Of a stretch of DNA of 40,988 bases, positions 430 through 27,587 are shown in pieces. Positions within the stretch are counted from its first letter, which is position 1; every line of letters begins with the position of its first letter. The notes below the pieces were generated by a model. It ran no database searches and had not been told where the DNA came from. It saw nothing but the letters and a program-made list of their open reading frames with translations. The stretch is from a virus, in the IMG/VR virus record IMGVR_UViG_3300034073_005187, positions 1 through 40,988 of that record; one strand, written 5' to 3'. The translations under genes were made by a program, and so were the position numbers.

Positions 430-1901
430 TGCCGATTGATTTTCCATCCTCGCCCACAAACGGACAGACATTCTCGTCCGGCGACAAGACGTGGGAATAC
501 GACGGCGTGGCGTGGGTCATGGTCACGCCGACTGCATCTATCGGGTCGGGAAGCATCACGGCAGACAAGATTGGAACTGGAGCGGTCACCGCAGCAAAGG
601 TAGCGTCTAACGCTGTAACTGAGGCAAAAATCAATGACGGTGCAGTTACCCAAAATAAACTCGCGTCAGGTTTGTCTGGTATCACGGTTACTACTACCGC
701 CCTGAGAAGTACGGTAGTTCCTTCTCCGTTTACTGGTCAGTTCATATTCTTGACGGATACCTCTGAATTGCAGAGATGGAATGGTGGTTCATGGGTCGCC
801 GCAATTGCTACCGTTCCGACTGGTGTGCCGACTGAACTATCTTTGGTTTCGGCAACACTTTTTACTGTCACAATTTCTTTTTCTGCTGGTCCTGACGGTG
901 GTTCTGAGATAACCAACTACCAATATGCGCTGTCGACGAACGGAGGAACTACTTTTAGTTCCTACGCCAACTTGAATCCCGCAGACGGAACGAGTCCGAT
1001 AACGATAACCGGATTGGCTCCAGGGACCTCGTATCAGGTCAAACTAAGAGCAGTGAACACACTTGGACCTAGTCCTTCGGAATCGTCTACGCTTAGTTTT
1101 TCTACACAAAGTGTCAGCATGGAATACGTAGTTGTGGCTGGCGGCGGAGGTGGCGGTGAAGGCGACGGAGCAACTTTTTATGGCGGTGGAGGCGGTGGCG
1201 GCGGTTACCGTTCTTCAGTGCTTGGAGAAAACTCTGGTGGAGGTGCATCGGCGGAAGTACCAATAGCAATTGTGGGTTCATCGACCTATACAATTACAGT
1301 TGGCGGTGGGGGGGCTTTCAATTCGGGCAGCGGTACCAATAGTTCCATAGCGGGAACTGGTATCACAACAATCACATCCAATGGTGGCGGGCGTGGTGGT
1401 AGCGCTAGTGGTGGCGCAGCAGTTGGTGGTTCTGGAGGCGGTGCTGCTGGAATAGGAAGCACTGGTGGTGCTAGCGGTACGGCAAATCAAGGTTTTGCCG
1501 GTAATGGCGGTGGTGGCGGTGCTGGCGAGGCTGGAGCAACGGATGGGACAGCCCAAGGTGGGGATGGCGTTTCATCGCAAATAAACGGAACAGCAACGTA
1601 CAGAGCGGGCGGCGGAAACACTCCGAGCGCAGCAAGTAATACCGGTGGTCTTGGTGGGGGTGGCTCATGGTCTGGAGGAACTAAGGCTGGTGGCACAAAC
1701 ACTGGTGGTGGTGGTTCTGGTGGGGCTGCTCAATTCGGCACTGGTGGCGCTGGTGGTTCTGGAGTGGTTATTGTTCGCTACCTAACAGCAGACGCAAGTA
1801 CCTACACAATCACTGGCGGAACAAAAGTCGTAGGACCTGCAGGCGCAACTGCTTACACGGTCCACACATTCACATCTAGCGGAAGTTTGGTGGTCGCATA
1901 A
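429..1901 (+). CDS. Tail fibre/adhesin with FN3 and glycine-rich domains
   Basis: 490 residues, start fixed by the TAATG overlap with the upstream gene. Residues 1-33 form a short module ([12 protein letters not shown] ... [12 protein letters not shown]) that recurs at the start of the genes at 1901 and 10498. Residues about 35-85 are heptad-like repeats with Lys and Asn typical of fibre shafts ([18 protein letters not shown]). Residues about 133-228 are a fibronectin type III domain ending '[17 protein letters not shown]'. Residues about 233-455 are glycine-rich, with the block '[18 protein letters not shown]' that recurs in the genes at 6069 and 6944, and the tail closes with a beta-like '[16 protein letters not shown]'. 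Such Gly-rich adhesins sit at phage fibre tips. Exact receptor unknown. Confidence 0.85.
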
Positions 1902-4900
1902 TGGCGATTGATTTCCCGAACTCTCCCGCACCGAACGACACATACACGGTCGGCGACAAGACGTGGATTTTCATTGACAGCAAGTGGCAAAGCGGTAACG
2001 GTCCGATAGGTCCTACGGGTCCAACAGGTCCGACTGGTCCAACTGGCGCTACTGGACCAACTGGTGCAACGGGTGCGGCATCAACCGTTCCTGGTCCTAC
2101 TGGTGCTACTGGTCCGACTGGTGCAGACGGATATGTTGGCTCCGATGGTGCCACTGGCGCTACTGGAGCAACAGGACCACAGGGTGAAGTCGGCGCAACA
2201 GGACCGACTGGTGCCACAGGACCACAAGGAGATGTTGGCGCTACAGGACCGATTGGACCGACAGGGGCAACAGGACCACAGGGAGAGACTGGTTTAACTG
2301 GAGCCACTGGTGCAACTGGTCCCCAAGGGGAAACCGGAGCAACAGGACCCGTTGGGGCAACTGGGGCAACAGGCGATGTCGGTGCAACAGGGCCCGTCGG
2401 GGCAACTGGAGCCGTAGGTCCGACGGGTCCAATAGGTGCCACAGGACCAACTGGCGCCACTGGTCCAGAACAATATGTAACGGTTTCTTCTGGTGCTCCC
2501 GCATCTCCGGTGCAAGGAGAAATGTGGTTCGATTCCGACACCACGCAAACATTCATTTATTACGATTCAACGTGGATCGAGATCGGCGCCGCTGGCGCAG
2601 TAGGCGCAACGGGTCCTACTGGTCCTGCTGGTGCCACTGGTCCCGAAGGCGCTGAGGGCGCAACTGGACCCGCAGGTGTAGAAGGTCCAACAGGACCAAC
2701 TGGTGCGACTGGTGATACTGGAGCAACTGGACCAACAGGAGACACTGGACCCACAGGACCAGCAGGTGCAACTGGCGCCACAGGTCCAACAGGTCCTGTT
2801 GGTGCTACTGGTCCTACTGGTCCGAACGGACCGTTGAATGACCTATCTGATGTAACCATAACTGATGTTGCGACAGGAGACGTTCTTTACTATGGGGGAA
2901 GCGGCTGGGTAAACACACCCATCGCAGGTATCGCCGCAAGTTCTTCAATAACTGTTTCCACGACCGCACCAGCCTCCCCGTCCGAAGGAGACATGTGGTT
3001 TGAATCCGACACAGGAAGAACCTACGTTTATTTTGATTCATACTGGGTGGAAATAGGTGCGGTTAGCACTGGTTCGCGAATCGCCATCAGTGGCGGCGCA
3101 CCCGTCAACCCCGTGGAAGGCGACTTGTGGTTTGATTCTGATACAGCAAAAACGTTTGTTTACTATGACTCGTCGTGGGTGGAAGTAGGCGCCGCCAACA
3201 GCGTTCCGCAAGTCCTCGACGACTTGACGGACGTATCCGCTGCATCGCCGACAAACGGTCATTTCCTACAATGGAACGGTACGGCTTGGGTCAATGATGA
3301 GATCGACTTGGGTACGGATACGACTGGTAATTATGTTGCGACGATTGCCGGCACTACGAATCAGGTGTCGGTGTCTGGGTCTGGTTCTGGGTCGGCGGCG
3401 GTCACGTTGTCTACTCCGCAGGACATTCATACGGGTGCGACGCCGACGTTTGCGGGTGCAACATTGTCGGGCTCTTCGTCTGGTGATTTGTTGCGTATTA
3501 CGCAGACTGGTGCGGGTAATGCGCTGGTTGTGGAGGATTCAACGAATCCTGATTCGACGCCGTTTGTTGTTGATAATGCTGGAAGGCTCATCGTTGGTCA
3601 TACGGGTTTCGTTGATGTTGATACGTTCACACCTGCAACACAGTTGCATCATTATGGGGCGGGTCTTGGGCTTTACAGGTGGAGTGCGAACGGAACTGGT
3701 GTAACTACGTATGTCGCAAAATCTCGCGGCGCAACTGCGGGTTCTTACACCACTCTGCAATCTGGTGACCAGTTGCATGTTCTGAGTTCTTATGGCGCTG
3801 ACGGTACGGGTTTTGTAAATGCGGCTCAAATTGCCACGACTGTTGACGGTGCGGTTTCTACTGGTGTTGTTCCTGGTCGCATAACTTTCAATACCGCTTC
3901 TTCTGCTGGAACCATTACGGAGCGTATGCGTATCGACTCCGCTGGACAAGTAGGAATCGGTGGAACCCCGTCGGCTGGCGACACGCTACGCCTCTCCAAA
4001 AACATCACTGGGGCAGTCAACAGTGGTGGAGTGTACGTCAGCGGAGCCATCCAATCAGATGTAACCACCGCAGTCCGCGTGTTTCGGTCAACTCCGTCAA
4101 CCGCCAACAGCAACTTTACATTGACGCAAATCTCGCACTATAGCGTCGTTGAGGGCACGTACAGCAACATTACGGCTGGCGGTGCGGTAACGAACCAGTA
4201 CGGGTTCTTGTGCGGTCCGATGACGCAGGGTACGAACATCTACGGTTTTGTGGGTCAGGTCGCCGCCGCATCAGACCGCTGGAACCTATACATGAGCGGC
4301 GGAGCCGCAAACTATCTGGCTGGTCGCCTCGGCGTAGGCGCGACCCTGACATCTGGTGCGATGGCGTTGATTACGAACACGACCGCCGCCGACGTTGGGC
4401 TAATCGTCAAAGGGGCCGCGTCACAAACAGGTGATTTGTTTTCAGTTCAAAACTCTGCGGGCACAAAACAGTGGCACATCAACAGTTCCAACGCAATCGG
4501 ACACGGCATAGGAACCGCCACTACAACTGGTTTCGTTGCCAGCGCTGGACTAGTCGCAAAAACATCTACCGCGTTCGGACCCCAGTACGTGTTGGGCAAC
4601 AAAACCAACGACACGAGCGCCCCTTATGTCATTCTTGAAAAAGACCGAGCGGATGCAGTCGTTCAATCAGGTGACGTTTTGGGCAACATTCAGTTCCGAG
4701 GTTATGATGGGGCGAACTATCGTCCAGCAGCGGCAATCGTGGCGGTGGTTGACGGCACTCCAGACACTGACGATATGCCTGGGCATCTGCGTTTCAATAC
4801 GACAGCCGACGGTTCATCCACGCTTACGGAGCGTATGCGTATCGACTCCGCTGGACAAGTCGGAATCGGAACGACACCTGGAGCGGGAAGAAACTTGGTC

Positions 4901-5473
4901 ATTGGCAAAGCAATCACTGGTTCCACTGGCTCAATAGCAGTTGTTGTCAACTCGACCATACAGTCAGACGTAACTGCCGCCACGGAAATCTTTAGGTCAG
5001 CGCCATCCACCGCTGCTCAATCATTCACTCTTACCAGCCTTAGCCATTTTTACACTCTTGGTGTTTCTACTCCTGGGTCTGGCTCTGCAATAACAAACCA
5101 GTACGGTTTCTTTGCTGGTTCTTCGTTGACTGGAGCCACGAACAACTACGCCTTTTACGGAGACGTAGCCGCCGCATCAGGTCGCTGGAACCTTTTTGCC
5201 ATCGGCACAGCCGCGAACTACATGGCGGGTCGTCTCGGTGTCGGAGCAACGCTGACTTCTAATGCGATGGTGCGGATTACAAACACAACCGCTGCCGATG
5301 TTGCACTTATTATCAAGGGTGCGGCAAGCCAGTCTGGCTATTTGACGGAATGGCAAAATAGCACCGGAACCACGGTGGCATACGTAAACGCCGACGGTAC
5401 ATCATCGTTCGGAGGAAATCCACTAACATCTTCACAAGCCGCCGCCGTCCTAATCATGGACATCGGCGCATAA
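1901..5473 (+). CDS. Long collagen-like tail fibre
   Basis: 1190 residues; start overlaps the previous stop (TAATG). Residues 1-33 repeat the [13 protein letters not shown] module. Residues about 34-188 and 230-310 are Gly-X-Y collagen-like repeats dominated by GPT, GAT, GPQ and GPV, which in phage and Bacillus proteins form triple-helical shafts. Between and after them a module of the type '[20 protein letters not shown]' occurs four times. Then '[20 protein letters not shown]' leads into a long beta-rich region with two copies of '[14 protein letters not shown]' (near residues 672 and 976), each followed by related blocks of about 200 residues. No S74 chaperone follows at the C terminus. 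Proline is mostly in the X position and Thr in the Y position, as in Bacillus BclA. A likely target of the hydroxylase and glycosyltransferase genes at 12-18 kb, by inference only. Confidence 0.9.
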
Positions 5474-6068: not shown

Positions 6069-6947
6069 ATGCCGATTTCCACGCCGTACGGAGTGCAGGG
6101 GCTTAAGGATTATGTGAAACTTTCTGCACCTCCAGTAATTGAATATCTCATTATTGCTGGTGGTGGAGGTGGGGGAAGCACAAATTTTGGAGGAGGGGGA
6201 GGCGCTGGTGGCTATAGATGCTCAAGAACTGGTGAATCCTCTGGCGGTGGTGCCTCCGCAGAGGCAGTGATGCAACCATCCTCGGGTGTTACATACACCA
6301 TTACGGTTGGTGGTGGTGGTAGTGCAAATACAAGCGGTTCTAATAGTTCTATTTCTGGAACGGGTTTGACCACGATAACTTCCAATGGTGGGGGTGCTGG
6401 CGGAACAGGGAATCAAGGAGTTGGCGCAACTGGAGGTTCTGGTGGTGGTGGTGCAGGCAGCAACACGGCGGGCGGAGGTGTTTACACAAACCATGGGCAA
6501 GGCACCGCCAACCAGGGTTATAGGGGTGGCGGCGGGTCAAGAACCGCAAACTCGGATGGCGGTGGTGGAGGTGGTGGCGCTGGAGCAATCGGAATTGGAA
6601 ACACTGGAGCGGGTACAGCCGTTGGGGGTGCTGGAGTTTCATCTTCAATAACAGGAACCGCAATCACTCGTGCTGGTGGGGGCGGCGGTGGGTACGCCAT
6701 TAATAGTGGCGGTGCTGGCGGTGGTGGCGCAGGAAGTGGAACAACCCCAACTTCTGGAGGTGCAAACACTGGTGGTGGCGGTGGAGGTGGTGGCGCTTCT
6801 GGCAGTTCTGGCGGTTCTGGAGTGATTGTTTTGAGACATCCCAAAGTCTATAAAACTGGCATCGCGACAAATGCAATCATTACAACAGTAGAAAACGATA
6901 CTGTCTATTTGTTTAATTCTACAGGAACTGTGCTCTGGCCCTCATGA
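6069..6947 (+). CDS. Glycine-rich adhesin
   Basis: 292 residues. After a short head (MPISTPYGVQGLKDYVKLSA) comes a strand 'IEYLIIAGGGGGG' and a long Gly-rich domain including '[18 protein letters not shown]', '[20 protein letters not shown]' and '[20 protein letters not shown]', ending 'VIVLRHPK' and a beta-like tail. The same block order occurs in the genes at 429 and 6944, so these are recombining copies of one fold. Gly-rich domains of this type may form polyglycine-II helix bundles, as in phage S16 adhesin. Its stop overlaps the next start (ATGA). Confidence 0.8.
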   Translation: MPISTPYGVQGLKDYVKLSAPPVIEYLIIAGGGGGGSTNFGGGGGAGGYRCSRTGESSGGGASAEAVMQPSSGVTYTITVGGGGSANTSGSNSSISGTGLTTITSNGGGAGGTGNQGVGATGGSGGGGAGSNTAGGGVYTNHGQGTANQGYRGGGGSRTANSDGGGGGGGAGAIGIGNTGAGTAVGGAGVSSSITGTAITRAGGGGGGYAINSGGAGGGGAGSGTTPTSGGANTGGGGGGGGASGSSGGSGVIVLRHPKVYKTGIATNAIITTVENDTVYLFNSTGTVLWPS

Positions 6948-8745: not shown

Positions 8746-9612
8746 ATGCCCTGTGTATACGCCCTTTATTCTTCGGAAAATCCCAAAGAAATCAAATATG
8801 TTGGTCGTTCGCAATTCGATTCTCCACAAAAACGCTTGAGTACACATATTCAAGAAGCAAATCAAGGGAAATCAAATACATACAAATGTAAGTGGATACG
8901 ACATGTTTTGACGTCTGGTTTTAAAGTTGAAGTTATAACTTTGGAAACAAATTTATCATGGGATGAATCTGCAAAAAAAGAAATGGAATATATTTCGCAT
9001 TATAAATCGCTTGGGCATAAATTAACAAATTTGACACTCGGCGGCGATGGAGCACTCGGAATGGTGCATACCAACGAAACACGACTCAAGATGCGCATCG
9101 GTCATCTGGGACGCAAACACTCGCCAGAAGCAATAGAGAATATGAAAAAAGCCCGCAAGTTTGTAAGTGCGGAAACTAGAGCCAAACTGAGCGCATGGCA
9201 AAAAGGTAAACCAAAATCAGAAGAGCATATACAAAAAATGAGAAAACCAAAATCCGCTGAACATGTAGAAAAAATGCGTCAAGTCAATCTAGGTAGACAA
9301 TTTTCAGAAGAACATAAACGAAAAATTAGTATTGCGGGTAAAGGGCGTATTGTTTCAAAGGAGACTCGAGACAAACTGAGTAAAGCGAAAAAAGGTTTTA
9401 AGCATACACCAGAAGCAATAGAAAAAAATAGACAGGCTCATTTGGGGAAAAAAGCCTCGCTAGAAACCAGAATGAAACAAAGCGCTGCCAGGAAAGGCAA
9501 AAAAAGAACTCCGCTTTCTGCTGAAACTAAAAAAAAGATAAGTGATACTCTTATACTACGCAATAAGCGTTTACGAGAAAACCGAACATCGCCAACTGTA
9601 GGAGGTGAATGA
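8746..9612 (+). CDS. Free-standing GIY-YIG homing endonuclease with NUMOD3 repeats
   Basis: 288 residues, GGAG a few bases before ATG. The N terminus has a degenerate GIY-YIG core: V4-Y5-A-L-Y, then 'KYVGRS' with Tyr18, Gly20 and Arg21, and the acidic helix 'EMEYISHY' (Glu79/Glu81) that supplies the metal ligand in the family. From about residue 105 to the end are repeated basic helix blocks of NUMOD3 type ('RIGHLGRKHSPEAIENMKKA', 'RKISIAGKGRIVSKETRDKL'), the DNA-binding part of such enzymes. The gene is clearly richer in A+T and Lys than its neighbours, a sign of recent transfer. It splits a fibre operon without breaking either neighbour, as mobile intergenic endonucleases do. It shares bases with the next start. 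Confidence 0.9.
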   Translation: MPCVYALYSSENPKEIKYVGRSQFDSPQKRLSTHIQEANQGKSNTYKCKWIRHVLTSGFKVEVITLETNLSWDESAKKEMEYISHYKSLGHKLTNLTLGGDGALGMVHTNETRLKMRIGHLGRKHSPEAIENMKKARKFVSAETRAKLSAWQKGKPKSEEHIQKMRKPKSAEHVEKMRQVNLGRQFSEEHKRKISIAGKGRIVSKETRDKLSKAKKGFKHTPEAIEKNRQAHLGKKASLETRMKQSAARKGKKRTPLSAETKKKISDTLILRNKRLRENRTSPTVGGE

Positions 9613-11272: not shown

Positions 11273-12118
11273 ATGCGTTTCGGTGAGCGTACACGCTCAG
11301 GCACATCAGTATCAGGGTGGACAAAGCGACCTACTGCTGGTGTCGGGTACGGTGTTGCGACGGGTGGCACTTCGTCGTCTATCACGGTGAGCGGTCAGGC
11401 GTACACGCTTCTTACTTTCTCATCTGACGGGAACCTTGTCGTATCTCAGGCTGGGGTGTTTGATTTGTTGCTCATCGGTGGTGGTGGTTCTAGCAATACT
11501 TCAAACGGTGCCTACGGTGGCGGTGGCGGTGGCGGCGTTCTAGGAATAAGCACAACTCTGACGGTGTATTTAGCCGCAGATACCTATGCCGTTGATGTGG
11601 GTGCAGGTAGCGGTGGGGGATGGGGTGCGAACGGCTCACGAAGTAGCGTCGCTGGTTTCATCGTTGGTGGTGGCGGCGGTGGTGGTGGTCGTGGAAACAA
11701 CTACTGCGGTGACGGCAACCTAAACTTTCAGCAGAGATTCCCTTTCCGTGGTGCTAATGGTGGCGGTTCAGTGCTTGATGCATTATTCGCAAGTGGAACA
11801 ATAGGATTCGCAGGCGGCTATGGTCCTGCGGCAATAAATACGGGGGCTGGTTCTGGTGGCGGTGGCGGCGGTGCTGGTGGAAGTGGTGGAAACGCTTCGG
11901 GCGGAACAGGTGGCTCAGGCGGAAACGGAATAAACATCTCTGGCTTCACGGGTGCTGGTTCCGCTTACTACGCAGGGGCAGGGGCAGGTGGTTCACCTTC
12001 TGGTACGGCAGGTCTTGGTGGCGTTGCTGGCGGTGGCGGTGCTGGCGTGAACTACGGTGCTGGCGGCTCTAACGGTGCTGGTGCGGCTGGCGCAGTATTC
12101 GTGAGGTTCAAGGTATGA
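11273..12118 (+). CDS. Glycine-rich adhesin
   Basis: 281 residues. The head (GGTSSSITVSGQAYTLLTFS, then SDGNLVVSQAGVFDLLLIGG) is related to the head of the protein at 6944, and the body is Gly-rich ([20 protein letters not shown] ... GGAGVNYGAGGSNGAGAAGA), closing with the strand 'VFVRFKV'. This is the last large fibre gene of the operon. It overlaps the next start by ATGA. Likely a third receptor-binding tip in the same phage. Confidence 0.8.
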   Translation: MRFGERTRSGTSVSGWTKRPTAGVGYGVATGGTSSSITVSGQAYTLLTFSSDGNLVVSQAGVFDLLLIGGGGSSNTSNGAYGGGGGGGVLGISTTLTVYLAADTYAVDVGAGSGGGWGANGSRSSVAGFIVGGGGGGGGRGNNYCGDGNLNFQQRFPFRGANGGGSVLDALFASGTIGFAGGYGPAAINTGAGSGGGGGGAGGSGGNASGGTGGSGGNGINISGFTGAGSAYYAGAGAGGSPSGTAGLGGVAGGGGAGVNYGAGGSNGAGAAGAVFVRFKV

Positions 12119-12354: not shown

Positions 12355-13407
12355 ATGCGATTCCATGTGGTGAGTTTGCCACACACCCAAACGAACCTAG
12401 ATTTCACGGCGTGTGCCTTCACCGAGAAGGTGCGCAAGTTTGCCATCATGATGAAGTCTCTCGGGCACACGGTGTATGTATATTCAGGGGACAAAAACGA
12501 AGCACCGTGCGACGAGCACATTCAGTGCTTCACGGAGAAAGAAAGACTCGCCGCCTGCAACGGCGGGCACTACACGATGGCGTCGTTCGACGACTCAAAA
12601 CCACATTGGGTCAAGTTCAACCAGACCGTAATTAAAGAACTGCGCGGTCGCCTAGAGGAACGAGACTTCATATGCGTCATCGGCGGCTATTCGCACAGGT
12701 CAATCGCCTACGCCTACCCGAACCATATGACGGTCGAGTTCGGCATCGGATACCCAGGAACCTTCGCCAAGTATCGTGTGTTCGAGTCGTATGCGTGGAT
12801 GCACTCCATTTACGGCGCGGAAGCCAAGAATCCTGCGGCGGCTGATGGCAGGTTCTATGACGCAGTCATTCCCGCCTACATAGACATCGCTCAGTTCCCA
12901 TTCGTGGAAGAACCGAGCGATTACTACTTGTTCATGGGGCGCCTCATAGAACGCAAGGGCTTCAACATCGCCGTGGAAGCCTGCAAGAAGGTTGGCGCCA
13001 GACTGCTCATCGCAGGGCAGGGTATTCCACCTTCGTACGGAGAATACGTGGGTGTGGTCGGCTCGGAGAGACGCGCCGAATTATTCGGTAACGCAATTGC
13101 ATCGTTCGCACCAACCATTTACGTGGAGCCGTTCGGCACGGTTGTAATTGAGTCGCAAGCCTGCGGAACCCCAGCGATAACTACTGATTGGGGCGCATTT
13201 ACCGAGACGGTAACTAATGGCTTGAACGGCTATCGATGCCGCACACTGAAAGACTTCGTTGGGGCAATGGAGAAAGCAAAGTCCCTAGACCGCAAAAAGA
13301 TTAGGGAATACGCCGTGGCGCAATATGGACTGGATGCCGTGGCACTTCGCTACGACGAGTACTTCAAGCGTCTTTCTACGCTCTGGGAGGACGGTTGGTA
13401 TTCGTAA
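12355..13407 (+). CDS. GT-B glycosyltransferase (GT4-like)
   Basis: 350 residues. The C-terminal half shows the GT-B fold of family 4: 'YYLFMGRLIERKGFNIAVEA', 'ARLLIAGQG', and the E-x7-E element 'EPFGTVVIESQACGTPAITT' with both Glu residues, followed by 'WGAFTETVTNGLNGY'. These residues bind the nucleotide-sugar donor. The N-terminal half (FTEKVRKFAIMMKSLGHTVY) fits the acceptor-binding domain. It lies between the fibre genes and the hydroxylase cluster, so its acceptor may be a virion protein, a cell-wall glycan or phage DNA; the sequence does not tell. The stop overlaps the next start (TAATG). Confidence 0.85.
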   Translation: MRFHVVSLPHTQTNLDFTACAFTEKVRKFAIMMKSLGHTVYVYSGDKNEAPCDEHIQCFTEKERLAACNGGHYTMASFDDSKPHWVKFNQTVIKELRGRLEERDFICVIGGYSHRSIAYAYPNHMTVEFGIGYPGTFAKYRVFESYAWMHSIYGAEAKNPAAADGRFYDAVIPAYIDIAQFPFVEEPSDYYLFMGRLIERKGFNIAVEACKKVGARLLIAGQGIPPSYGEYVGVVGSERRAELFGNAIASFAPTIYVEPFGTVVIESQACGTPAITTDWGAFTETVTNGLNGYRCRTLKDFVGAMEKAKSLDRKKIREYAVAQYGLDAVALRYDEYFKRLSTLWEDGWYS

Positions 13408-14105
13408 TGACGACGATCACTTTAAGAAAAACGCAAATTGATTCACCGGCTCTGCGTCAATCACGGGTGAGACGCGACTGGATGGACGCCACGCACAACA
13501 AGCACGCATACCAGTGTCGTCCGATGACCGTAGCCAACGTCTACGGCTGGGAGCTGTCCCTCCCGTGCGAAGTCAGGGTCGCCTGGAGGGGAGGGAACCA
13601 CAACGTCGACATACTCAACTCCCCGAAATTCGGAGTTTCCGCAGGGATTATAGGAATGATAACTTTCCCGATCGGATGGAGGTTCAAGACGGAACCCGGC
13701 CACTCCATACAAATAGGAGGTTCCCCCAATCTGATACTGCCCGGGGCTCAAGCACTGTCGGCGATCATTCCGACGGACTGGTGGCCCGACGAGTTCCAGA
13801 TGAATTGGGTTATAACCGAAGTCGATAGGGAGGTTGTTTTCCCCGAGGGTTTTCCGTTCATGTTCTTCACCGTCATCAAGAACTCGGTCGCCGAGGAAGC
13901 CAAATTATTACTGGATTCTTCGCCGGAAAACAGGGAAGCCGTCGAATCGCGCATCAAATACGGAGAAAGCAAAATGAGGCGGAACGTGGAAGAGCCGTGG
14001 ACTTGGACTCGAGGCATCAAGACGGGTCTCGATGCCGACGGGAGCAGGATAGGGCCCGCCTTCACCGGCCTACCCAAGCTTCACGAACTCGGCGACGAAG
14101 GCTGA
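13407..14105 (+). CDS. DUF6065-like protein
   Basis: 232 residues from the ATG at 13407, which overlaps the previous stop (TAATG); an upstream in-frame start inside the previous gene is less likely. Conserved-looking parts are 'CRPMTVANVYGWELSLPCEV', 'ITFPIGWRFKTEPGHSIQI', 'ALSAIIPTDWWPDEFQMNW' and 'FPEGFPFMFFTVI', which match my memory of the DUF6065 family, found in phages and some bacterial modification clusters. Function unknown; the Trp and His pattern suggests a small-molecule or metal-binding fold but that is guesswork. Its end overlaps a small convergent minus-strand gene by 25 bases. Confidence 0.75.
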   Translation: MTTITLRKTQIDSPALRQSRVRRDWMDATHNKHAYQCRPMTVANVYGWELSLPCEVRVAWRGGNHNVDILNSPKFGVSAGIIGMITFPIGWRFKTEPGHSIQIGGSPNLILPGAQALSAIIPTDWWPDEFQMNWVITEVDREVVFPEGFPFMFFTVIKNSVAEEAKLLLDSSPENREAVESRIKYGESKMRRNVEEPWTWTRGIKTGLDADGSRIGPAFTGLPKLHELGDEG

Positions 14106-14245
14106 GAATCGGCTATCTCGGCGACCCTGTCGATCGTCCGCTGATCCACGAGCGAGGCGAGGACGTGTCCAACCCATTGATACGAGGACTTTTCGCAGTA
14201 ACCCTTGGATTGCATGACCTTAGCTATCGATTCGACGTCAGCCAT
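14081..14245 (-). CDS. Small protein downstream of oxygenase
   Basis: 54 residues (MADVESIAKVMQSKGYCEKS ... LASLVDQRTIDRVAEIADSQ). The ATG at 14245 lies inside the last codons of the 2OG oxygenase on the same strand (8-base overlap), which is how most genes here are coupled. It is hydrophilic and helical, with no known motif. It runs 25 bases into the convergent gene at 13407-14105. No other gene covers the 14106-14237 gap, and a start in the overlap supports it, but no homologue can be named. Confidence 0.5.
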   Translation of the reverse strand: MADVESIAKVMQSKGYCEKSSYQWVGHVLASLVDQRTIDRVAEIADSQPSSPSS

Positions 14246-14939
14246 AGGGATTGCTGCTCGCTTTCGTGCCGTCTTCGTTGTATCCCGGCGTGTATTTATG
14301 GAATCTATCGTTGTAGTCGAACATCGTAACCGCCGAGTACTTCACGCCCGACTTAACCGGCAACGAGGCGTGCGAATATATGAAGTTCGACGGACAAATT
14401 ACTATGTCCCCTTTCCTCGGGGCGTACTTTTGGTCTATGTACGGAAACCAAAGCTCCCCTCCCTCAAAATCGTCGTTGAGATAGCCGACCGTGGAGACTG
14501 AACAAGTGTAGGAAAATCCGTGATCGGCATGGACGTTGAAGTGCTGACCGACGCCGTATTTGACGAAGTTCACGGCCTCTATGTACTCCATGGTTATTCC
14601 GTATTGAGACGTGTAGTTGTCCACGCAGGCCTTCGTGTATGCGATCAAGTCGTTGAGCAGGCGAGCCATATGAACGTACTCCTGTGGGGCCGAGTCAAGC
14701 TCCGATTTCCTAAGTTTGCAATCGAAACAGTCCCTATAATCTTTCATCTCCTGGTAGTCGCCGACGAGCGCAGGGGACCAAGATACCGTCTTGGACTTCC
14801 CGATCGCCATGGCGTTTTCTATGGTCTGAATGTCGGTCGTGTACTCCGGCAACACGGAGCGATAAATTTTTATGCCGAATCTCGGGTCGTCGATGCTCTC
14901 CACTTGAATTTGTGGCTGCGTTGTTGCCGGTGCGTTCAT
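14238..14939 (-). CDS. 2OG-Fe(II) oxygenase, prolyl-4-hydroxylase-like (1)
   Basis: 233 residues. The double-stranded beta-helix core has the iron triad His137-x-Asp139 ('FNVHADHGFSYT') and His190 ('YSHASLPVKSGVKYS'), with Lys200 ten residues on, at the position that binds the 2-oxoglutarate carboxylate in prolyl hydroxylases (usually Lys or Arg). Between them is 'STVGYLNDDFEGGELWFPYI', the family's usual core strand. It uses 2-oxoglutarate and O2 to hydroxylate a target, most likely a protein side chain. The N-terminal 120 residues are more divergent. It is transcribed divergently from the next oxygenase with only 22 bases between the two start codons, and no ribosome-binding site. Confidence 0.9.
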   Translation of the reverse strand: MNAPATTQPQIQVESIDDPRFGIKIYRSVLPEYTTDIQTIENAMAIGKSKTVSWSPALVGDYQEMKDYRDCFDCKLRKSELDSAPQEYVHMARLLNDLIAYTKACVDNYTSQYGITMEYIEAVNFVKYGVGQHFNVHADHGFSYTCSVSTVGYLNDDFEGGELWFPYIDQKYAPRKGDIVICPSNFIYSHASLPVKSGVKYSAVTMFDYNDRFHKYTPGYNEDGTKASSNPYG

Positions 14940-14945
14940 GTTTTA

Positions 14946-14955
14946 ACCCTATCAT
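14946..14955. promoter_or_regulatory. Overlapping divergent -10 boxes, leaderless starts
   Basis: On the minus strand TAGGGT (14946-14951) lies six bases before the ATG at 14939. On the plus strand TATCAT (14950-14955) lies six bases before the ATG at 14962. The two boxes overlap by two bases. The 22-base spacer leaves no room for leader sequences or ribosome-binding sites, so both genes are probably leaderless and compete for the same promoter space. Confidence 0.6.
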
Positions 14956-14961
14956 TTACGT

Positions 14962-15537
14962 ATGGACCGAGCTGGAAACACGGAAAACATAGTCTTCGTA
15001 CAAGGCGTTATTTGCGGTAATGATCTTGTGGCGTTGCGCTCCTACTGCGAATCGGTCGAGCACTGGTCCTCCAACTCGTACGACGGAAGCGACGACAAAA
15101 TACACCACGTAACGTCGTTCTCCGAACCATGCCTATCGTCGCTGAAGGTAGCCGTGGATCATGTTCAGTGGATGATAGAGGAGCGCTTTGGTAGAGAATT
15201 GATGGGGCAAAACCCGAACATAAGGAAGTGGGAGGTCGGCGATTATCAGCCACTGCACGCCGACGGAGAAGATACGGAGGGGAAACCCAACGAAGCCTAT
15301 CCGGTGGATTATGCGTCGATCGTCTACGTCAACGACGACTACGATGGCGGAGAAATAGAGTTTCCGCTTCAGGGGATAAAGTGGAAGCCGGTAGCCGGAA
15401 CGGCCGTATTCTTTCCCGCCAACAAATGGTTCTCCCACATGGTCCACGAAATAACGAGCGGCACGAGATACACGTCTCCACAGTTCTGGATGCCAACGAA
15501 ACACGTCAAATTGCGCGATTTTTATGCCCTTGCATGA
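14962..15537 (+). CDS. 2OG-Fe(II) oxygenase, prolyl-4-hydroxylase-like (2)
   Basis: 191 residues. Iron ligands are His99-x-Asp101 ('YQPLHADGED') and His159 ('FSHMVHEITSGTRYTSPQFW'), with Arg169 ten residues later for 2-oxoglutarate binding. The core strand 'SIVYVNDDYDGGEIEFP' is nearly shared with the two following genes, so the three are duplicates. 'IRKWEVGDYQPLHAD' is the usual lead into the first metal ligand. No ribosome-binding site; a TANNNT box sits six bases before the ATG. Its end overlaps the next start. Related to hydroxylases of proline in collagen-like and other proteins; the true substrate is not shown by sequence. Confidence 0.9.
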   Translation: MDRAGNTENIVFVQGVICGNDLVALRSYCESVEHWSSNSYDGSDDKIHHVTSFSEPCLSSLKVAVDHVQWMIEERFGRELMGQNPNIRKWEVGDYQPLHADGEDTEGKPNEAYPVDYASIVYVNDDYDGGEIEFPLQGIKWKPVAGTAVFFPANKWFSHMVHEITSGTRYTSPQFWMPTKHVKLRDFYALA

Positions 15538-16057
15538 CTCTGGTTACGGAATAGAGTGGTTCCACGATTCCATACGGAACATTGACGAGCTCGTTGCATC
15601 AGTATCTTCGCTTCCCTGGTCGCGGCCGCAAAATGTGGACAGGAAAGACAGATCAAACTCGGTTTTCTACATGATGTCGCGCGATCGGCATCCGGTGGAA
15701 TTTGGTTTCGTCGACGAATTCTTGTCTTCCGGCTTGGCCGAATACAGGGATAAATATAGGTTGCAGAAGCTCAAATACGAATCGGTTGAGGCTTTGCTGT
15801 ACGAGGAGGGGGAACGATACGTGGAGCACTTCGACAACGGCTCCCCGCACGTCGCCAACAGGATATGCAGCATGGTCGCCTATTTGAACGACGATTACGA
15901 GGGCGGAGAGATCGAATTCCCGATCTTCGGCTTGAAGACCAAACCAAAAGCCGGATCATTGGTCGTTTTCCCATCAAACTATCCCTACTTGCACGTCGTG
16001 CATCCGGTTCTTTTCGGAAAACGATATGCATTGAACGTCTTTTTCTGCTACGAATGA
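15524..16057 (+). CDS. 2OG-Fe(II) oxygenase, prolyl-4-hydroxylase-like (3)
   Basis: 177 residues, start overlapping the previous gene by 14 bases in another frame. Ligands are His102-x-Asp104 ('YVEHFDNGSPHVANRICSM') and His157, with Arg167 following ('YLHVVHPVLFGKRYALNVFF'). 'MVAYLNDDYEGGEIEFPIFG' is the conserved core strand. The first 60 residues are shorter and different from those of genes 2 and 4, so the substrate pocket may differ. It sits in a three-gene tandem run of the same family, followed two bases later by the next start. Confidence 0.9.
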   Translation: MPLHDSGYGIEWFHDSIRNIDELVASVSSLPWSRPQNVDRKDRSNSVFYMMSRDRHPVEFGFVDEFLSSGLAEYRDKYRLQKLKYESVEALLYEEGERYVEHFDNGSPHVANRICSMVAYLNDDYEGGEIEFPIFGLKTKPKAGSLVVFPSNYPYLHVVHPVLFGKRYALNVFFCYE

Positions 16058-16058
16058 A

Positions 16059-16652
16059 ATGAGGAATTGCGAGGAGGTTACTCCGCCTGGGTACTGGGGA
16101 TCGGGAGCGGAGAACATACACGTAGTCGATAACTTCGTGTCGCCCGATGATTTGTACAAAATAATGACCTACGCCGAATCCATAAGGACTTGGGGTGAAC
16201 TTGACGACGCATGGGACCAGCGAGTTCATTCGTTCGAGATGATCCACTCCAATTGCGAAGACGTGGCGGACTTCTTGAAATCGCTGACCGATTCGATCAG
16301 GGAGTCCATATCCGAAGCTCTCTACGCCGAATTGACCGAAGCTGCTCCGAGCATAGTCAGATGGAGAGTCGGAGACTATCAGTCACCGCACGCCGACAAG
16401 CAGGAAGTCGACGGTTCTCCGAACCGGTATCCGGAAAACGACATTGCTTCGATCGTTTACCTCAACGACGACTACGAAGGCGGGGATATCTATTTTCCAA
16501 ATCAGGACTTAAGTTTAAGGCCCAGCGCAGGTTCGCTCGTATTCTTTCCCGGCGACGTCAACTACCTCCACGGAGTAACGGCCGTGAAACGGGGGGTTAG
16601 GTACACGATGCCTAATTTTTGGAGCATTAGGAGCATCTGTAAGTTTTCTTGA
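16059..16652 (+). CDS. 2OG-Fe(II) oxygenase, prolyl-4-hydroxylase-like (4)
   Basis: 197 residues. Ligands are His111-x-Asp113 ('YQSPHADKQEVDGS') and His171, with Arg181 ('YLHGVTAVKRGVRYTMPNFW'), and the core 'SIVYLNDDYEGGDIYFP'. The arrangement is close to that of gene 2 at 14962, including the 'VRWRVGDYQSPHAD' lead. Same tandem operon, starting one base after the previous stop. It ends 26 bases inside the convergent GlcNAc-transferase gene, so the two ends of these transcripts overlap. Probable protein hydroxylase; free small-molecule substrates are possible too. Confidence 0.9.
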   Translation: MRNCEEVTPPGYWGSGAENIHVVDNFVSPDDLYKIMTYAESIRTWGELDDAWDQRVHSFEMIHSNCEDVADFLKSLTDSIRESISEALYAELTEAAPSIVRWRVGDYQSPHADKQEVDGSPNRYPENDIASIVYLNDDYEGGDIYFPNQDLSLRPSAGSLVFFPGDVNYLHGVTAVKRGVRYTMPNFWSIRSICKFS

Positions 16653-17541
16653 ACTTTTCTAAATCTATTCCGATGAAATCAACTGCCATTTTTGCCGACT
16701 CTTGGTCTGGCGCGCCCCATAGCCCGGTTAGGGTTCCATCAAATATTGATGCGACTCTTTGGGTCGTATACGAGTCCATGGACCTCAGTATGGGCGGAGG
16801 AGCGTCGTGCATGAAAATGGTTCTCCAATCTCCTGATTTTTTTGCGTCAAAGAATTTATCTCCTTTATCCAGGTGGTAGATGTCAAGATAGTCAGTGGAA
16901 AAACTTCTGATCCCCCTGGAAATTAACCTAAAATATATGCTTAGCTCCTCTCCGTAAAACCACATATGGGGATCGGGCGGAACTACGGAAAAGGTTTTCG
17001 AAGCAGAAAACATGTACGCGGCGGAAACGGCCCTATTCTCCATCCAGTCAACTTTTTTTCGAGGAACCCAATTTTTTGACCAAACCCGAAAATGTTCGTC
17101 CAAAAACAAAAAAGAAGATTCTTCATTTTTTCTTATCGGAACCATAAATCCTTCTGGACCCTCCATGCACGGACTCACGTGCTGGGAAATTACTATCTCG
17201 TTTTCGCAGGCGTTGGAAATGGCCTCGTATCTTAAGACAATTTCGGAATCCCAGTTTTTTCCGAAAATCATGTGGGCATCGCACTGCAGAACGTAATCGA
17301 AACACGCCGAATTTTCCATGGCCATGTAACGCGGTATTCCCACGCCCGTGGGAACGCTAGTTCTGTATTTTTTGTGCGCCGCCGGATATTCGTCGAGGTC
17401 GGAAAATTTATCATCCGTTCTGAATTCGCATACGTTCACGAATACATCGTTTTCGTTGCTTTTGTTTTCAATTATTGACTTGACGGTTTGTTCAACGTGG
17501 GATTCGTTGTATGCCGCTATGGCGACAAGAATCGTCGCCAT
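16627..17541 (-). CDS. Skp1-type GlcNAc-transferase (PF11397-like, GT60)
   Basis: 304 residues. The N terminus 'ILVAIAAYNESHVEQTVKSI' is a GT-A opening. Then come 'GVGIPRYMAMENS' and 'YVLQCDAHMIFGKNWDSEI', where D-A-H is the metal and donor site of this family, and 'MWFYGEELSIYFRLISRGI', where Glu-Glu and the Arg fit the family's 'GEE..aRlw..G' element. The best-studied member adds alpha-GlcNAc to a hydroxyproline of Skp1 in Dictyostelium after a prolyl-4-hydroxylase has acted. Here the gene lies directly beside four such hydroxylase genes, convergent with their tandem run, which strongly suggests that hydroxylation precedes glycosylation. The donor sugar and target are inferred. Confidence 0.85.
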   Translation of the reverse strand: MATILVAIAAYNESHVEQTVKSIIENKSNENDVFVNVCEFRTDDKFSDLDEYPAAHKKYRTSVPTGVGIPRYMAMENSACFDYVLQCDAHMIFGKNWDSEIVLRYEAISNACENEIVISQHVSPCMEGPEGFMVPIRKNEESSFLFLDEHFRVWSKNWVPRKKVDWMENRAVSAAYMFSASKTFSVVPPDPHMWFYGEELSIYFRLISRGIRSFSTDYLDIYHLDKGDKFFDAKKSGDWRTIFMHDAPPPILRSMDSYTTQRVASIFDGTLTGLWGAPDQESAKMAVDFIGIDLEKFKKTYRCS

Positions 17542-17545
17542 TCGT

Positions 17546-17779
17546 TCACCACTTACCGAGCGGGCAAGTGGCGTCTTTGAGCTTCACCTTAAGATTCATG
17601 AAACACCCGCACTCCCTGCACTGATTCGTGACCCGCATGAGGCGGTCGCACGATAGGCAGATATTGAAGCGCGTGGTACTTTCGTCTTCGGTGGACTTTT
17701 TGACGTTTGGATCGAGGACGTCCCAAGGCCTAGTGGATCCGAGTTTCTTCTTGTATTCGCTCCAAGCGCTCATGATCAT
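17546..17779 (-). CDS. Small zinc-ribbon-like protein
   Basis: 77 residues, ATG in an ATGA overlap with the upstream gene; a second ATG two codons later is possible. The C-terminal half has 'NICLSCDRLMRVTNQCRECG', then 'CFMNLKVKLKDATCPLGKW': four to six Cys in CxxC-type pairs that fit a zinc ribbon. Proteins with this ending ('CG.FM..K..L....CP.GKW') are common in marine and freshwater phages, near glycosyltransferase or fibre genes. Function unknown. It is four bases from the GlcNAc-transferase start and thus probably in one transcript with it. Confidence 0.8.
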   Translation of the reverse strand: MIMSAWSEYKKKLGSTRPWDVLDPNVKKSTEDESTTRFNICLSCDRLMRVTNQCRECGCFMNLKVKLKDATCPLGKW

Positions 17780-18003
17780 TCGGCCGGAGGGATGAAATCA
17801 ACCCCGTCAAACGTCCATCCGGCGACTACCGAGGTTTTCAGTTCTTCCGGAACGAGAACTATTTGCGGATCGGAGCTTAGGGCGGCTACGGCGTTTTCGG
17901 CTTCCTGTGGGTACCTCATCGCAAAAGCGACTTCTCCGTCCACTACCACCGCAAAAACGCTCATGGTTGCCTCATTTATACGAGGCACCGAGGAATTTGA
18001 CAT
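17776..18003 (-). CDS. Small unknown protein
   Basis: 75 residues, ATG at 18003 with a perfect GGAGGT five bases upstream; a second ATG at residue 14 has a weaker site. The sequence 'VFAVVVDGEVAFAMRYPQEA' and 'PQIVLVPEELKTSVVAGWTF' suggests a small alpha-beta protein; the end 'WTFDGVDFIPPAE' resembles those of short phage proteins found beside fibre genes. First gene of a three-gene minus-strand run ending with the GlcNAc-transferase, all with overlapping or nearly touching ends. No family recognised. Confidence 0.7.
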   Translation of the reverse strand: MSNSSVPRINEATMSVFAVVVDGEVAFAMRYPQEAENAVAALSSDPQIVLVPEELKTSVVAGWTFDGVDFIPPAE

Positions 18004-18030
18004 ATTTACCTCCGAATTGAAACAATACTA

Positions 18031-18675
18031 CTATAAGCACGGACCGGAAGTGCATGGTCCACAAATGCAACAGATTATGGAGATTATTTGCGTTTCCTGC
18101 GAAGGGCATCCTACGCATGGATCAGGGTTTCCGTAGGGCGCCTGCCAATAATAGGTCCTGTATTGAACATAACTGCCGCCTTCGCACCCGTAGAAGTCCT
18201 CCGAATACAGCAGAACTCCGTTGCAGCTCGTACACGCGGGTAGCGAAAACGGCGGTGGGAACGGCGGTGGGAACGGCGGTGGGAACGGCGGTGGGAACGG
18301 CGGTGGCGCAAATGGCGGTGGCGCAAATGGCGGTGGCGCAAATGGCGGTGGGAATGAAGGTGGAGCTACCGGTGTTGCGGAATTACTCGACGCCGTGTTG
18401 TCGGAATTCACTCCGTATGGGGTTTCGAGTTTTACCGTGAATGTATACGATGTCCCGTTTGACAAACCGGTAACGGTTATTGATGAGCATGGCGATGCAC
18501 AAGTCCCCTGGATACTGCTGGGTGAAGAAGTTGCTCTATAGGTTCCAGAATTCGATTTGCCCCGATATGAGGACTCAGTGAAATTAACCGTGACCTGACC
18601 GTTACCCGCCGTAGCCGTGCCGATTGTCGGCGTTGAAGGCTTCTTGCCCTGACTAGCGGTATTGCCGGGAATCAC
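18031..18675 (-). CDS. FN3, PPPF-repeat and Cys-rich protein
   Basis: 214 residues starting at GTG (18675), in a GTGA overlap with the upstream fibre gene. Residues about 14-104 are a fibronectin type III domain ('TVTGLSNGTSYTFTVKLETP'). Residues about 107-144 are a run of PPPF and PPPFA repeats encoded by tandem DNA repeats (see 18251-18355). Residues about 147-214 hold many Cys ('PACTSCNGVLLYSEDFYGCE', 'IICCICGPCTSGPCL') in pairs that look like disulfide bridges or metal sites. There is no signal peptide. The Pro-rich run would adopt a stiff polyproline-II rod, like plant extensins. Its place between hydroxylase genes and a fibre gene makes it a good candidate for hydroxyproline modification; this is inference. 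Confidence 0.8.
   Translation of the reverse strand: MIPGNTASQGKKPSTPTIGTATAGNGQVTVNFTESSYRGKSNSGTYRATSSPSSIQGTCASPCSSITVTGLSNGTSYTFTVKLETPYGVNSDNTASSNSATPVAPPSFPPPFAPPPFAPPPFAPPPFPPPFPPPFPPPFPPPFSLPACTSCNGVLLYSEDFYGCEGGSYVQYRTYYWQAPYGNPDPCVGCPSQETQIISIICCICGPCTSGPCL
18251..18355 (-). repeat. Tandem 12- and 15-base repeats coding for PPPF units
   Basis: On the plus strand the unit GGCGGTGGGAAC (12 bases) occurs four times in a row (18251-18298), then GGCGGTGGCGCAAAT (15 bases) three times (18299-18343), then GGCGGTGGGAAT. On the coding (minus) strand these give PPPF and PPPFA blocks. Unit sizes are multiples of three, so copy number can change without breaking the frame. Confidence 0.9.
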
Positions 18676-19784
18676 GTCGAGCTCAAATCACCAATCAGAT
18701 ACCACTCGTCGGTTCCTCTTTTGATCAGGGTCGCCGTCGAATATTGGGCTCTTAGATATGACCCCGGTGTCGCCCTGACGGTCACACCCCCGGTGGCAAC
18801 GACTTGTGTCTTGCCGGCGCCATACTGGGTTATGGTGACCTGAGAGCCGATCGGGAATGCGTGAGCCGAATTGAGCGGCACCGTCACCGTATTTGCTGAT
18901 CCGACGTTCATTTCGATTACCTTGTTCTTGTCTCCAAGAACCAGGGAGTAATTTGCGGTCTTGGTGTCTATTGAAAGATCGGCGATCTTTCCTCTTTCGA
19001 TCCCCGCGGTGGAACTGATGTCGGCGTTCACTATGGTTCCGTCTGCAATCATCGTGCTCGTAACAGTGCCCGTATCGGCGGCAGTTATTGCCGTGCCCGA
19101 AATCTTGGTCTTATCAATTGCAGCCGAAGCGTTTATGTCGGCGTTGACAATTACCCCCGACCCAATAGCCGTAACCCCGGTTGAACTGACCGTTACGTCA
19201 CCGCTCAGTGCGGTGGCGGTCGGAACGTTGCTCGCATTTCCGATAAGAACCTGACCGGCGGTAATGCTCGCCAATTTGCTATGGGCTATGGCCGCCGATG
19301 CGTTTATGTCTGCGTTGACTATCGTACCGTCGGCTATTTTCCCGCTGGTCACGGCATTGGCGGCGATCTTCGATTCGGTTACCTCTCCGTCGGTTATCGT
19401 GTTCATGATCACACCGGTCAGCATCCACGAGTTCGCGTCAAGTTTCAACAGGGTGGCTAGCGAATAACGGGTATTCAGCTGGAGGACCGAACCCTCGGCG
19501 CTTATTGCGACACCGGAGGCGCCCTGAACGTTCACGGTTCCGGCAGAGTCCAATAGAAGATTCACCCTGTCGCCGACGTCGAACAAAACGGAAGAGTCGG
19601 CGGGAACCGTCAGGGTTACGGAACCAGAGTTGGTGAATCTAATCAACCTGCCCAAATCCGAGGCCACGAGCGTATACGAGGTTCCCGACTGCGTATTTAT
19701 CGTGTAATTGAAGTCGCTGGCCTGCAGCGTGTTCATTTGGGCCGCCGTTAGCGTTTGCCCGGCGGTAAATTGCTGAATCGTCAT
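18672..19784 (-). CDS. Tail fibre shaft protein
   Basis: 370 residues from the ATG at 19784, which has GGAG seven bases upstream; a TTG five codons earlier is the alternative. The start 'MTIQQFTAGQTLTAAQMNTL' is a common fibre N terminus. Residues about 30-125 form a beta domain ending 'LLKLDANSWMLTG', and a related domain closes the protein ('TATLIKRGTDEWYLIGDLSS'). Between them are repeats such as 'GTIVNADINASAAIAHSKLA', a shaft pattern seen in long tail fibres. It is read away from the plus-strand fibre operon and coupled to the PPPF protein. Likely a second, separately regulated fibre. Confidence 0.85.
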   Translation of the reverse strand: MTIQQFTAGQTLTAAQMNTLQASDFNYTINTQSGTSYTLVASDLGRLIRFTNSGSVTLTVPADSSVLFDVGDRVNLLLDSAGTVNVQGASGVAISAEGSVLQLNTRYSLATLLKLDANSWMLTGVIMNTITDGEVTESKIAANAVTSGKIADGTIVNADINASAAIAHSKLASITAGQVLIGNASNVPTATALSGDVTVSSTGVTAIGSGVIVNADINASAAIDKTKISGTAITAADTGTVTSTMIADGTIVNADISSTAGIERGKIADLSIDTKTANYSLVLGDKNKVIEMNVGSANTVTVPLNSAHAFPIGSQVTITQYGAGKTQVVATGGVTVRATPGSYLRAQYSTATLIKRGTDEWYLIGDLSST

Positions 19785-19872
19785 CGGTGGCTCCGTCAAT
19801 GTTTTTCGCGGCCAGAAATCTCTTGACCGATTTTACACCCTACTTCATCATTTTTGCTAATAACTGAACGAG

Positions 19873-20005: not shown

Positions 20006-23344
<3,339 letters not shown>

Positions 23345-27008: not shown

Positions 27009-27587
27009 TTACTTAAACGAATTACAAGCTATGGCGAAATGCCAGTGCCAGTGCCCCACCACCGGCCACAAAACTTTTCCGTCGTTCCAGCCGAATCCGT
27101 TCGGGTTTTTGGGTATCTCGTCGCAAACGTCCTTGAGCTCGACGAAACCGCACTTATCGAGAAGATTCCAAACTCTCTCGTGATGACAATTCCAATGATG
27201 GTGAGCACCGTCCCACTCCAAGTGCTCTCTCCCCGGTTGCGTGTTTACGTCTAGGTGCTCCATGGTGGAGACGACCATGTGCCAGGGCTCCTGTCCCGAT
27301 GCCCACCTTTTTATGGTCTTGTAGACGTCCGGTCCGCAAACCAAAAACTTCGCATTCGGCTTTGCGATCCTTTTCATTTCATGCAAAAAGCCCGCCACGT
27401 CTCTCCACGGAATGTGCTCCAGAACGTGGCCCAAAAATACCGCATCAAACTCGTCGTCGGGAAACGGATACGGTTCCCCGTTTTTAACCAGCACGTCGGG
27501 CTTGGTGGTCGATCCATCGTCCCAAACGTCGGTATTTACCCAACCATCCGCATAGTGAGTGCCGCAACCGGCGTTGAGCAATCTCAT
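27009..27587 (-). CDS. Class I SAM-dependent methyltransferase
   Basis: 192 residues from the ATG at 27587, in an ATGA overlap with the upstream dioxygenase; further upstream in-frame starts would lie inside that gene. Motif I is 'LLNAGCGTHYADGWVNTDV', motif II region 'PDVLVKNGEPYPFPDDEFDA', then 'VFLGHVLEHIPWRDVAGFL' and 'NAKFLVCGPDVYKTI', typical of the Methyltransf_11 type. The C terminus has many His and Trp ('GHWHWHFAIACNSF'). It is the last gene of a methyltransferase, dioxygenase, glycosyltransferase operon, so it may methylate a sugar or a modified residue. Target unknown. Confidence 0.85.
   Translation of the reverse strand: MRLLNAGCGTHYADGWVNTDVWDDGSTTKPDVLVKNGEPYPFPDDEFDAVFLGHVLEHIPWRDVAGFLHEMKRIAKPNAKFLVCGPDVYKTIKRWASGQEPWHMVVSTMEHLDVNTQPGREHLEWDGAHHHWNCHHERVWNLLDKCGFVELKDVCDEIPKNPNGFGWNDGKVLWPVVGHWHWHFAIACNSFK

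Follow-up and report, generated by a model that had tools for sequence, protein, structure and literature searches.

We analyzed the complete IMG/VR record IMGVR_UViG_3300034073_005187, a viral stretch of 40,988 bases referred to below as the window, and identified in it a candidate module for tail-fibre maturation. In this module, prolyl-4-hydroxylase (P4H)-like enzymes would hydroxylate a protein rod made of PPxF repeats, and a glycosyltransferase (GT) would add sugar to the fibre protein; we assign this reading a probability of about 0.6. The genes involved had been proposed in an earlier note on this DNA, which described four P4H-like genes beside a PF11397-type GT and a PPPF-repeat protein nearby. 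All three elements were confirmed: the four P4H-like 2-oxoglutarate (2OG)-Fe(II) oxygenases score above the curated cut-off of PF13640, the GT scores above that of PF11397, and the PPPF gene (18031-18675, minus strand) lies in the same operon as the GT gene. The gene families, catalytic residues, operon layout and linkage of these genes in other phages were observed directly and are described below. The locus and a collagen-like fibre gene of the same phage contain the following features.

1901..5473, plus strand: collagen-like fibre (PF01391, E 3.1e-31)
13395..14105, plus strand: DUF6065 protein (PF19541, E 1.4e-41)
14238..14939, minus strand: P4H-like 2OG-Fe(II) oxygenase (PF13640 2OG-FeII_Oxy_3, E 6.6e-11; relative in contig L452 84% identical)
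14962..15537, plus strand: P4H-like 2OG-Fe(II) oxygenase (PF13640, E 4.1e-8; L452 relative 69% identical)
15524..16057, plus strand: P4H-like 2OG-Fe(II) oxygenase (PF13640, E 7.6e-15; structure model with a predicted local distance difference test score (pLDDT) of 84.7)
16059..16652, plus strand: P4H-like 2OG-Fe(II) oxygenase (PF13640, E 4.8e-10; 26-base overlap with the convergent GT gene)
16627..17541, minus strand: PF11397 GT (E 9.5e-18; model pLDDT 90.5)
17546..17779, minus strand: DUF6171 small zinc-ribbon-like protein (PF19668, E 6.3e-9)
17776..18003, minus strand: 75-amino-acid operon protein (phrog_14370, E 1.1e-4)
18031..18675, minus strand: PPPF-repeat protein with a Cys-rich end and a weak fn3 match, the proposed substrate
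18247..18363, minus strand: PPPF tract, residues 105-143, tandem repeats (26 Pro, 1 Ser, no Thr, no Lys)
18672..19799, minus strand: tail-fibre-like gene heading the operon (phrog_21510, E 8e-31; phrog_8780 minor tail protein, E 1.6e-27)

Linkage of P4H-like genes to PPxF repeat proteins

P4H-like genes accompany PPxF repeats in many other viral contigs. The scans of IMG/VR for PPFF, GPT, PT and fn3 peptides and for P4H are samples, and all their counts given here hold among the matches listed; the PP[TS]F scan is complete. The retrieved stretches are partial, so that counts of P4H or GT genes are lower bounds, and the scans share some contigs and are thus partly dependent. The PPFF scan yielded 120 stretches coding PPFFPPFFPPFF, or 114 after six duplicates under other ids were left out, and the motif lies in an open reading frame (ORF) in 103 of the 114. 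A P4H-like gene is present in 67 of the 88 PPFF stretches with at least 4 kb retrieved, and the median distance between repeat and P4H gene is 141 bp over the 71 P4H-bearing loci of any length. Among control stretches of at least 4 kb, P4H-like genes were found in 7 of 109 with GPT-collagen and in 8 of 100 with PT repeats. The PP[TS]F scan returned 71 stretches, 53 of them with the motif in an ORF, and P4H genes occur in 35 of the 47 that reach 4 kb.

The fn3-peptide scan served to separate linkage to the tract from the mere presence of P4H genes at fn3-bearing tail genes. P4H genes were found in 10 of 12 fn3 stretches with a Pro-aromatic tract versus 2 of 95 without one (the Fisher p-values for this comparison ignore relatedness), and one of the two exceptions (L599) carries PPSF repeats that were overlooked by the search expression. 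Clustering without repeat masking merged nearly all PPFF loci, and masked clustering was used instead. After repeat ORFs were masked and similar loci collapsed, P4H genes were present in 33 of 45 PPFF clusters, 7 of 101 GPT clusters and 6 of 90 PT clusters.

The association was also examined from the side of the oxygenases, with a profile derived from the four window proteins. Viral contigs frequently encode P4H-like oxygenases (at least 539 confirmed among 600 candidate stretches), the genes of which form tandem arrays of up to 11. A protein with long PPFF, PPYF or PFF repeats is encoded near P4H at 44 of 80 loci, and at 37 of the 53 loci that span at least 10 kb. A scan of genomes from 84,980 prokaryote species recovered the PPFF pattern in 9 stretches, hence the repeat is mainly viral; two of these stretches (L644, L646) carry P4H-like genes.

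The PPPF tract of the window is 39 residues long and consists of 9 PPxF units, which differ at synonymous third positions only, except for an A spacer and the first unit, PPSF. The protein that contains it matches fn3 (E 0.002, below the cut-off) and a tail PHROG (E 3.8e-4) only weakly, and by eye it shares a TPVAPP-type linker and the Cys-rich end with several other repeat proteins. Domains of the fn3 type accompany the tract above the cut-off in three other contigs (L076, L083, L524) and below it in L102. In the contigs L454 and L461, phrog_8780 minor tail protein and phrog_21510, the families of the gene that precedes the PPPF gene in the window, are fused to a PPTF tract, and in L091 the tract stands ahead of a Peptidase_S74 spike chaperone. 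A PHROG search of four repeat proteins (L083, L085, L086, L102) gave no match. By their sequences, the proteins in which PPxF tracts reside look like tail-type proteins. In L078 (1-669), and by eye also in L102, L661 and L717, the tract runs into a domain resembling Hint/intein-type self-processing domains; the Intein_splicing match of L078 has a Pfam E-value of 1.5e-5 and scores 25.3 bits against a cut-off of 35.8, and L102 has no such match.

Candidate substrates of the oxygenases

The iron triad HxD...H, together with an R or K 10 residues past the distal His, is present in all four window oxygenases, and the triad and the basic 2OG ligand are kept in 36 of 36 aligned oxygenases. In a sequence-profile search against solved structures, the Bacillus P4H 3itq came first (E 7.6e-12), and the P4H of PBCV-1 was matched at E 4.5e-9. 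For the modelled P4H (15524-16057), the top Foldseek match was the PBCV-1 enzyme (5c5t), and the top match in a second structural comparison was a P4H of P. putida that has also been solved bound to EF-Tu. The window oxygenases appear to be of the prolyl 4-hydroxylase type, as the nearest solved proteins by sequence and by modelled fold are prolyl hydroxylases. Two other activities were considered and rejected. DNA modification by a TET/JBP-type oxygenase with a GT disagrees with the TET_JBP matches of two proteins (13.3 bits versus a cut-off of 34.9) and with the position of the genes among tail genes, and lysyl hydroxylation disagrees with the lack of Lys in the PPPF tract and in the Gly-X-Y runs of the window.

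The earlier note had inferred fibre proteins in general to be the substrates, including a collagen-like fibre placed 13 kb upstream. That fibre is present (1901-5473); 8.8 kb lie between its near end and the first P4H gene, and 11.2 kb between this end and the GT gene, so that the figure of 13 kb is approximate. The proposal about substrates is supported for the PPxF fibre and not for the collagen. The 79 Gly-X-Y triplets of the window collagen have Pro at X in 35 cases and at Y in none, and they contain no Lys. The rarity of P4H-like genes at GPT loci and the lack of Pro at Y make the PPxF fibre the likelier substrate. Moreover, none of 119 GPT-collagen stretches carries a PF11397-like GT, and in the Actinomycetia phage DSL-LC01, for which collagen-like genes are annotated, no P4H-like ORF was present in the two thirds of the phage examined. 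The collagen was rejected as the main target on the counts of P4H and GT genes and the lack of Pro at Y. It is retained as a candidate in view of a Bacillus P4H that is able to hydroxylate Pro at position X of PPG peptides, and of the glycosylation of BclA collagen (PMC8968730; this and the other papers given by PMC number are cited from excerpts of their text). The collagen is also encoded by the same phage; nevertheless, we regard its modification by the oxygenases and the GT as improbable.

Alternatively, the oxygenases may act on host targets, by EF-Tu-like hydroxylation or through 2OG signalling or nucleic acids, in which case the site among the tail genes would be a cargo hotspot. The match to the P. 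putida enzyme is consistent with this, as are the published guesses of DNA repair or 2OG metabolism for cyanophage 2OG oxygenases (excerpt of PMC3037559) and the GIY-YIG/NUMOD3 gene at 8746-9612, which shows that cargo genes do enter the region. However, a general preference for tail loci fits poorly with the 2 of 95 fn3 stretches that have P4H-like genes and no tract, and a single host target is not suggested by arrays in which up to 11 paralogues stand next to repeat proteins. This explanation is therefore judged rather improbable, and the PPxF fibre is the likely substrate of the P4H-like enzymes.

The glycosyltransferase and its possible acceptor

The GT gene belongs to one tight minus-strand operon with the genes for the tail fibre, the PPPF protein, the 75-amino-acid protein and DUF6171. 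A 4-base overlap joins the fibre gene to the PPPF gene, and another joins the gene of the 75-amino-acid protein to that of DUF6171; a gap of 4 bases separates DUF6171 from the GT. Three plus-strand P4H-like genes point at this operon, and the fourth (14238-14939), on the minus strand, is followed by the plus-strand DUF6065 gene. Contig L452 encodes relatives of DUF6171 (54% identical), the GT (64%), two of the P4H proteins (69% and 84%) and DUF6065 (76%), with order and relative strands as in the window and with a different P4H gene between the GT and the other genes. DUF6065 is also found near P4H and GT in L453, L455 and L456; against PDB, its profile gave at best Stathmin-4, at E 0.41 or worse.

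DUF6171-like small ORFs, detected by a Cys-pattern expression, occur at 22 of 88 PPFF and 17 of 45 PP[TS]F loci, and at 1 of 109 GPT, 2 of 100 PT and 5 of 98 fn3 control loci. A fusion protein in L087 (1087-2289) carries DUF6171 at the N-terminus of a PF11397 transferase and adjoins a protein with PT and PFF repeats. As a guess, DUF6171 might be an adaptor that brings the enzymes to the nascent fibre. In Synechococcus phage S-IOM18 (L720, 6986-7309), a DUF6171-like gene comes after genes of the tail-fibre region and ahead of one annotated as DNA endonuclease V; the same PHROG name is matched by the window oxygenases, and the S-IOM18 gene has no match to the P4H profile at E 1e-3.

The GT matches PF11397 with 65.2 bits (cut-off 21). 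When its AlphaFold2 model was searched with Foldseek, rows 1-47 of the best 50 were polypeptide N-acetylgalactosamine (GalNAc)-transferases, and with VIA-align these enzymes filled rows 1-29 (Z 19.4-23.3; next entry 17.3). The DxH motif is invariant in 33 of 33 aligned GT sequences. The closest class for the GT, judged from its model, is the polypeptide-transferase type with a GT-A fold and DxH, a sharing of fold that does not establish function. The likeness to the mucin-type GalNAc-transferases comes with 12-15% identity and with no lectin domain in the 304 amino acids of the window GT. Gnt1, which we take to belong to PF11397, is not among the structure matches listed for the model. A phmmer search of PDB with the GT gave no match up to E 1, and a tblastn search of 50,697 phage records gave none.

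A close-relative scan with the GT recovered only the second contig of the same phage (see below), and PF11397 was detected in 5 of 50 P4H-carrying virus records (the 50 longest of 80). The GT-P4H gene pair itself recurs in other phages: 17 of the best 80 GT relatives have a P4H gene in the retrieved stretch, 15 of them within 2 kb. The 17 include 11 of the 12 best relatives, among them four (L456-L459) that seem to be near-copies. In a tree built from 56 non-redundant GTs, 17 with P4H within 2 kb, the trait requires 6 changes versus a mean of 14.7 after shuffling, and 0 of 500 shuffles were as low; the tree is a quick one with long branches, and the deeper placement of the window GT in it is unsure.

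The nature of the acceptor was assessed from the repeat sequences. With 26 Pro, 1 Ser and neither Thr nor Lys in the window tract, glycosylation inside it would need hydroxyproline (Hyp) or that single Ser, which favours Hyp as the acceptor in the window phage, if the tract is glycosylated at all. In several sister phages with both GT and P4H, the repeat unit is PPTF or PPSF, and PF11397-like GTs were found at 11 of 112 PT-repeat loci and 5 of 103 PPFF loci; in some phages, therefore, Ser or Thr may be the acceptor. The presence of a GT might track Ser, Thr or Pro at x, as GT genes occur at 4 of 8 non-aromatic versus 6 of 136 aromatic arrays. This comparison is post hoc and small, the window and a locus known from the GT scan alone are counted among the 8, and the pool includes loci found via P4H. 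At the PT-repeat stretches (L331-L450), the GT is mostly on the same strand and without P4H, a possible separate pairing for Thr glycosylation.

It is a realistic alternative, at somewhat under even odds, that the P4H enzymes act on the PPxF fibre and the GT is a mucin-type transferase acting on Ser/Thr of tail proteins, with the neighbourhood of the genes reflecting a shared substrate. The nearest modelled folds are Ser/Thr polypeptide GalNAc-transferases, the PPTF and PPSF units and the PT-repeat loci provide such acceptors, and mucin-type enzymes are placed in family GT60 in the excerpt of PMC8724618. The single Ser and absent Thr of the window tract argue against it, though the acceptor could still be a Ser/Thr-rich part outside the tract. 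We put the chance that the GT and the P4H enzymes share the fibre protein as substrate at about even, and consider action of the GT on Hyp in the window phage possible but rather doubtful.

Several results weigh against the proposed module as a whole. At a loose clustering threshold, P4H genes are present in only 6 of 11 PPFF clusters (5 of 81 for GPT and 5 of 71 for PT), a figure that reflects the chaining of most PPFF loci into a single group. Of the P4H loci of at least 10 kb, 16 of 53 lack a long tract. Among 5 phage stretches examined for an isolate that combines P4H and PPxF, three of cyanophage type have a P4H-like ORF (S-SKS1, ACG-2014g, AG-345-L05) and all 5 lack PPxF, as do both DSL-LC01 stretches. 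As for the GT, 63 of the best 80 relatives have no P4H in the retrieved stretch, and the same is true of 8 of the 11 GT-bearing PT-repeat loci, in line with a Ser/Thr acceptor there. Matches to the P4H model extend to AlkB and LH3 (Z 16.8-16.9), and other 2OG oxygenases lie within about 2 Z units of the prolyl hydroxylases. Finally, according to the excerpt of PMC7019647, purified virions of PBCV-1 yielded no detectable hydroxyproline although this virus has an active P4H.

Genome context, related systems and implications

A second IMG/VR record, IMGVR_UViG_3300036770_008238 (52,096 bases), is identical to the window over 1414-40988 (39,575 bases) and extends 12.5 kb beyond it, which indicates one phage recovered twice. 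The extension encodes a WhiB-like protein (L006 10589-11011, by eye), and the protein at 20006-23344 partially matches the lake phage DSL-LC01; both suggest an actinobacterial host. The window contains further genes of possible relevance to modification and fibre structure.

429-1901, 6069-6947, 6944-8716 and 11273-12118: four Gly-rich proteins in the fibre cluster (the first by a Gly_rich_2 match, the other three by eye)
8746-9612: NUMOD3 (above the cut-off) and GIY-YIG-like (below it) gene among the fibre genes, probably a homing endonuclease
12355-13407 and 28402-29487: GT4-like genes, the second below the Pfam cut-off
27584-28405: PhyH-type 2OG oxygenase, additional to the set of the earlier note
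27009-29487: methyltransferase, the PhyH-type oxygenase and the below-cut-off GT4-like gene, a possible second modification set
39386-40514: right end with dense short imperfect tandem repeats and overlapping low-complexity ORFs of doubtful coding status

In the proposed pathway, the P4H-like enzymes, using O2, Fe(II) and 2OG, would hydroxylate prolines of the PPxF (here PPPF) units in the cytoplasm before assembly, and the paralogues may split the positions of the repeat among themselves. The GT, encoded in one operon with the PPPF gene, would then glycosylate the fibre protein. With one Ser and no Thr in the tract, an acceptor inside it would mainly be Hyp, which parallels the Skp1 PhyA-Gnt1 pathway. 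The polyproline-II rod that bears the fibre tip would become stiffer and more hydrated or soluble through hydroxylation, whether or not sugar is added. Gene content and linkage apart, this pathway is inferred, including its substrate, the sequence of its reactions, the sugar and any consequence for adsorption.

The closest known logic is that of Skp1 modification in Dictyostelium and Toxoplasma, in which a P4H acts before a GT60 polypeptide N-acetylglucosamine (GlcNAc)-transferase, Gnt1, that requires hydroxylated proline (PMC6939170, PMC8724618). The window likewise pairs P4H-like enzymes with a PF11397 transferase, but differs in its several P4H paralogues, the phage context, a probable tail-repeat substrate and the lack of Skp1. 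A fused P4H/GlcNAc-transferase has reportedly been described from a plant pathogen, to judge from a title. The PBCV-1 P4H, also a viral enzyme and the top Foldseek match, is active on Pro-containing peptides (PMC7019647), although PBCV-1 is a eukaryotic algal virus. Cyanophage 2OG-Fe(II) oxygenases share phrog_61 with all four window oxygenases, yet the three examined P4H-bearing stretches lack the tract. Plant extensins are Pro-rich proteins that are hydroxylated and then O-glycosylated on Hyp (PMC8724618); the likeness is one of logic only. By this analogy it can be speculated, tentatively and at less than even odds, that phages build extensin-like tail fibres with tandem P4H enzymes acting on PPxF rods and, in a subset, a Gnt1-type transferase, acting on Hyp here.

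Phage P4H-like genes have been noted before, their use being termed cryptic in the excerpt of PMC9301287 and their products EGLN3-like in structure in that of PMC12774648. Full-text searches, which left most subscription papers and all preprints outside, found no report of a pairing of PPxF proteins, or of a PF11397 GT, with P4H genes in phages. We know of no earlier hydroxyproline-glycosylation pathway in bacteriophages, and the present one would be the first if the proposed reading is true. In that case, a common class of phage oxygenases would acquire a general function, tail-fibre maturation would depend on oxygen, iron and 2OG, and phage virions would contain structural hydroxyproline; small soluble hydroxylase-substrate pairs would also become usable for Hyp-rich materials. 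For viral oxygenases of open role, the linkage to PPxF repeats provides a peptide-level hypothesis that can be decided by mass spectrometry.

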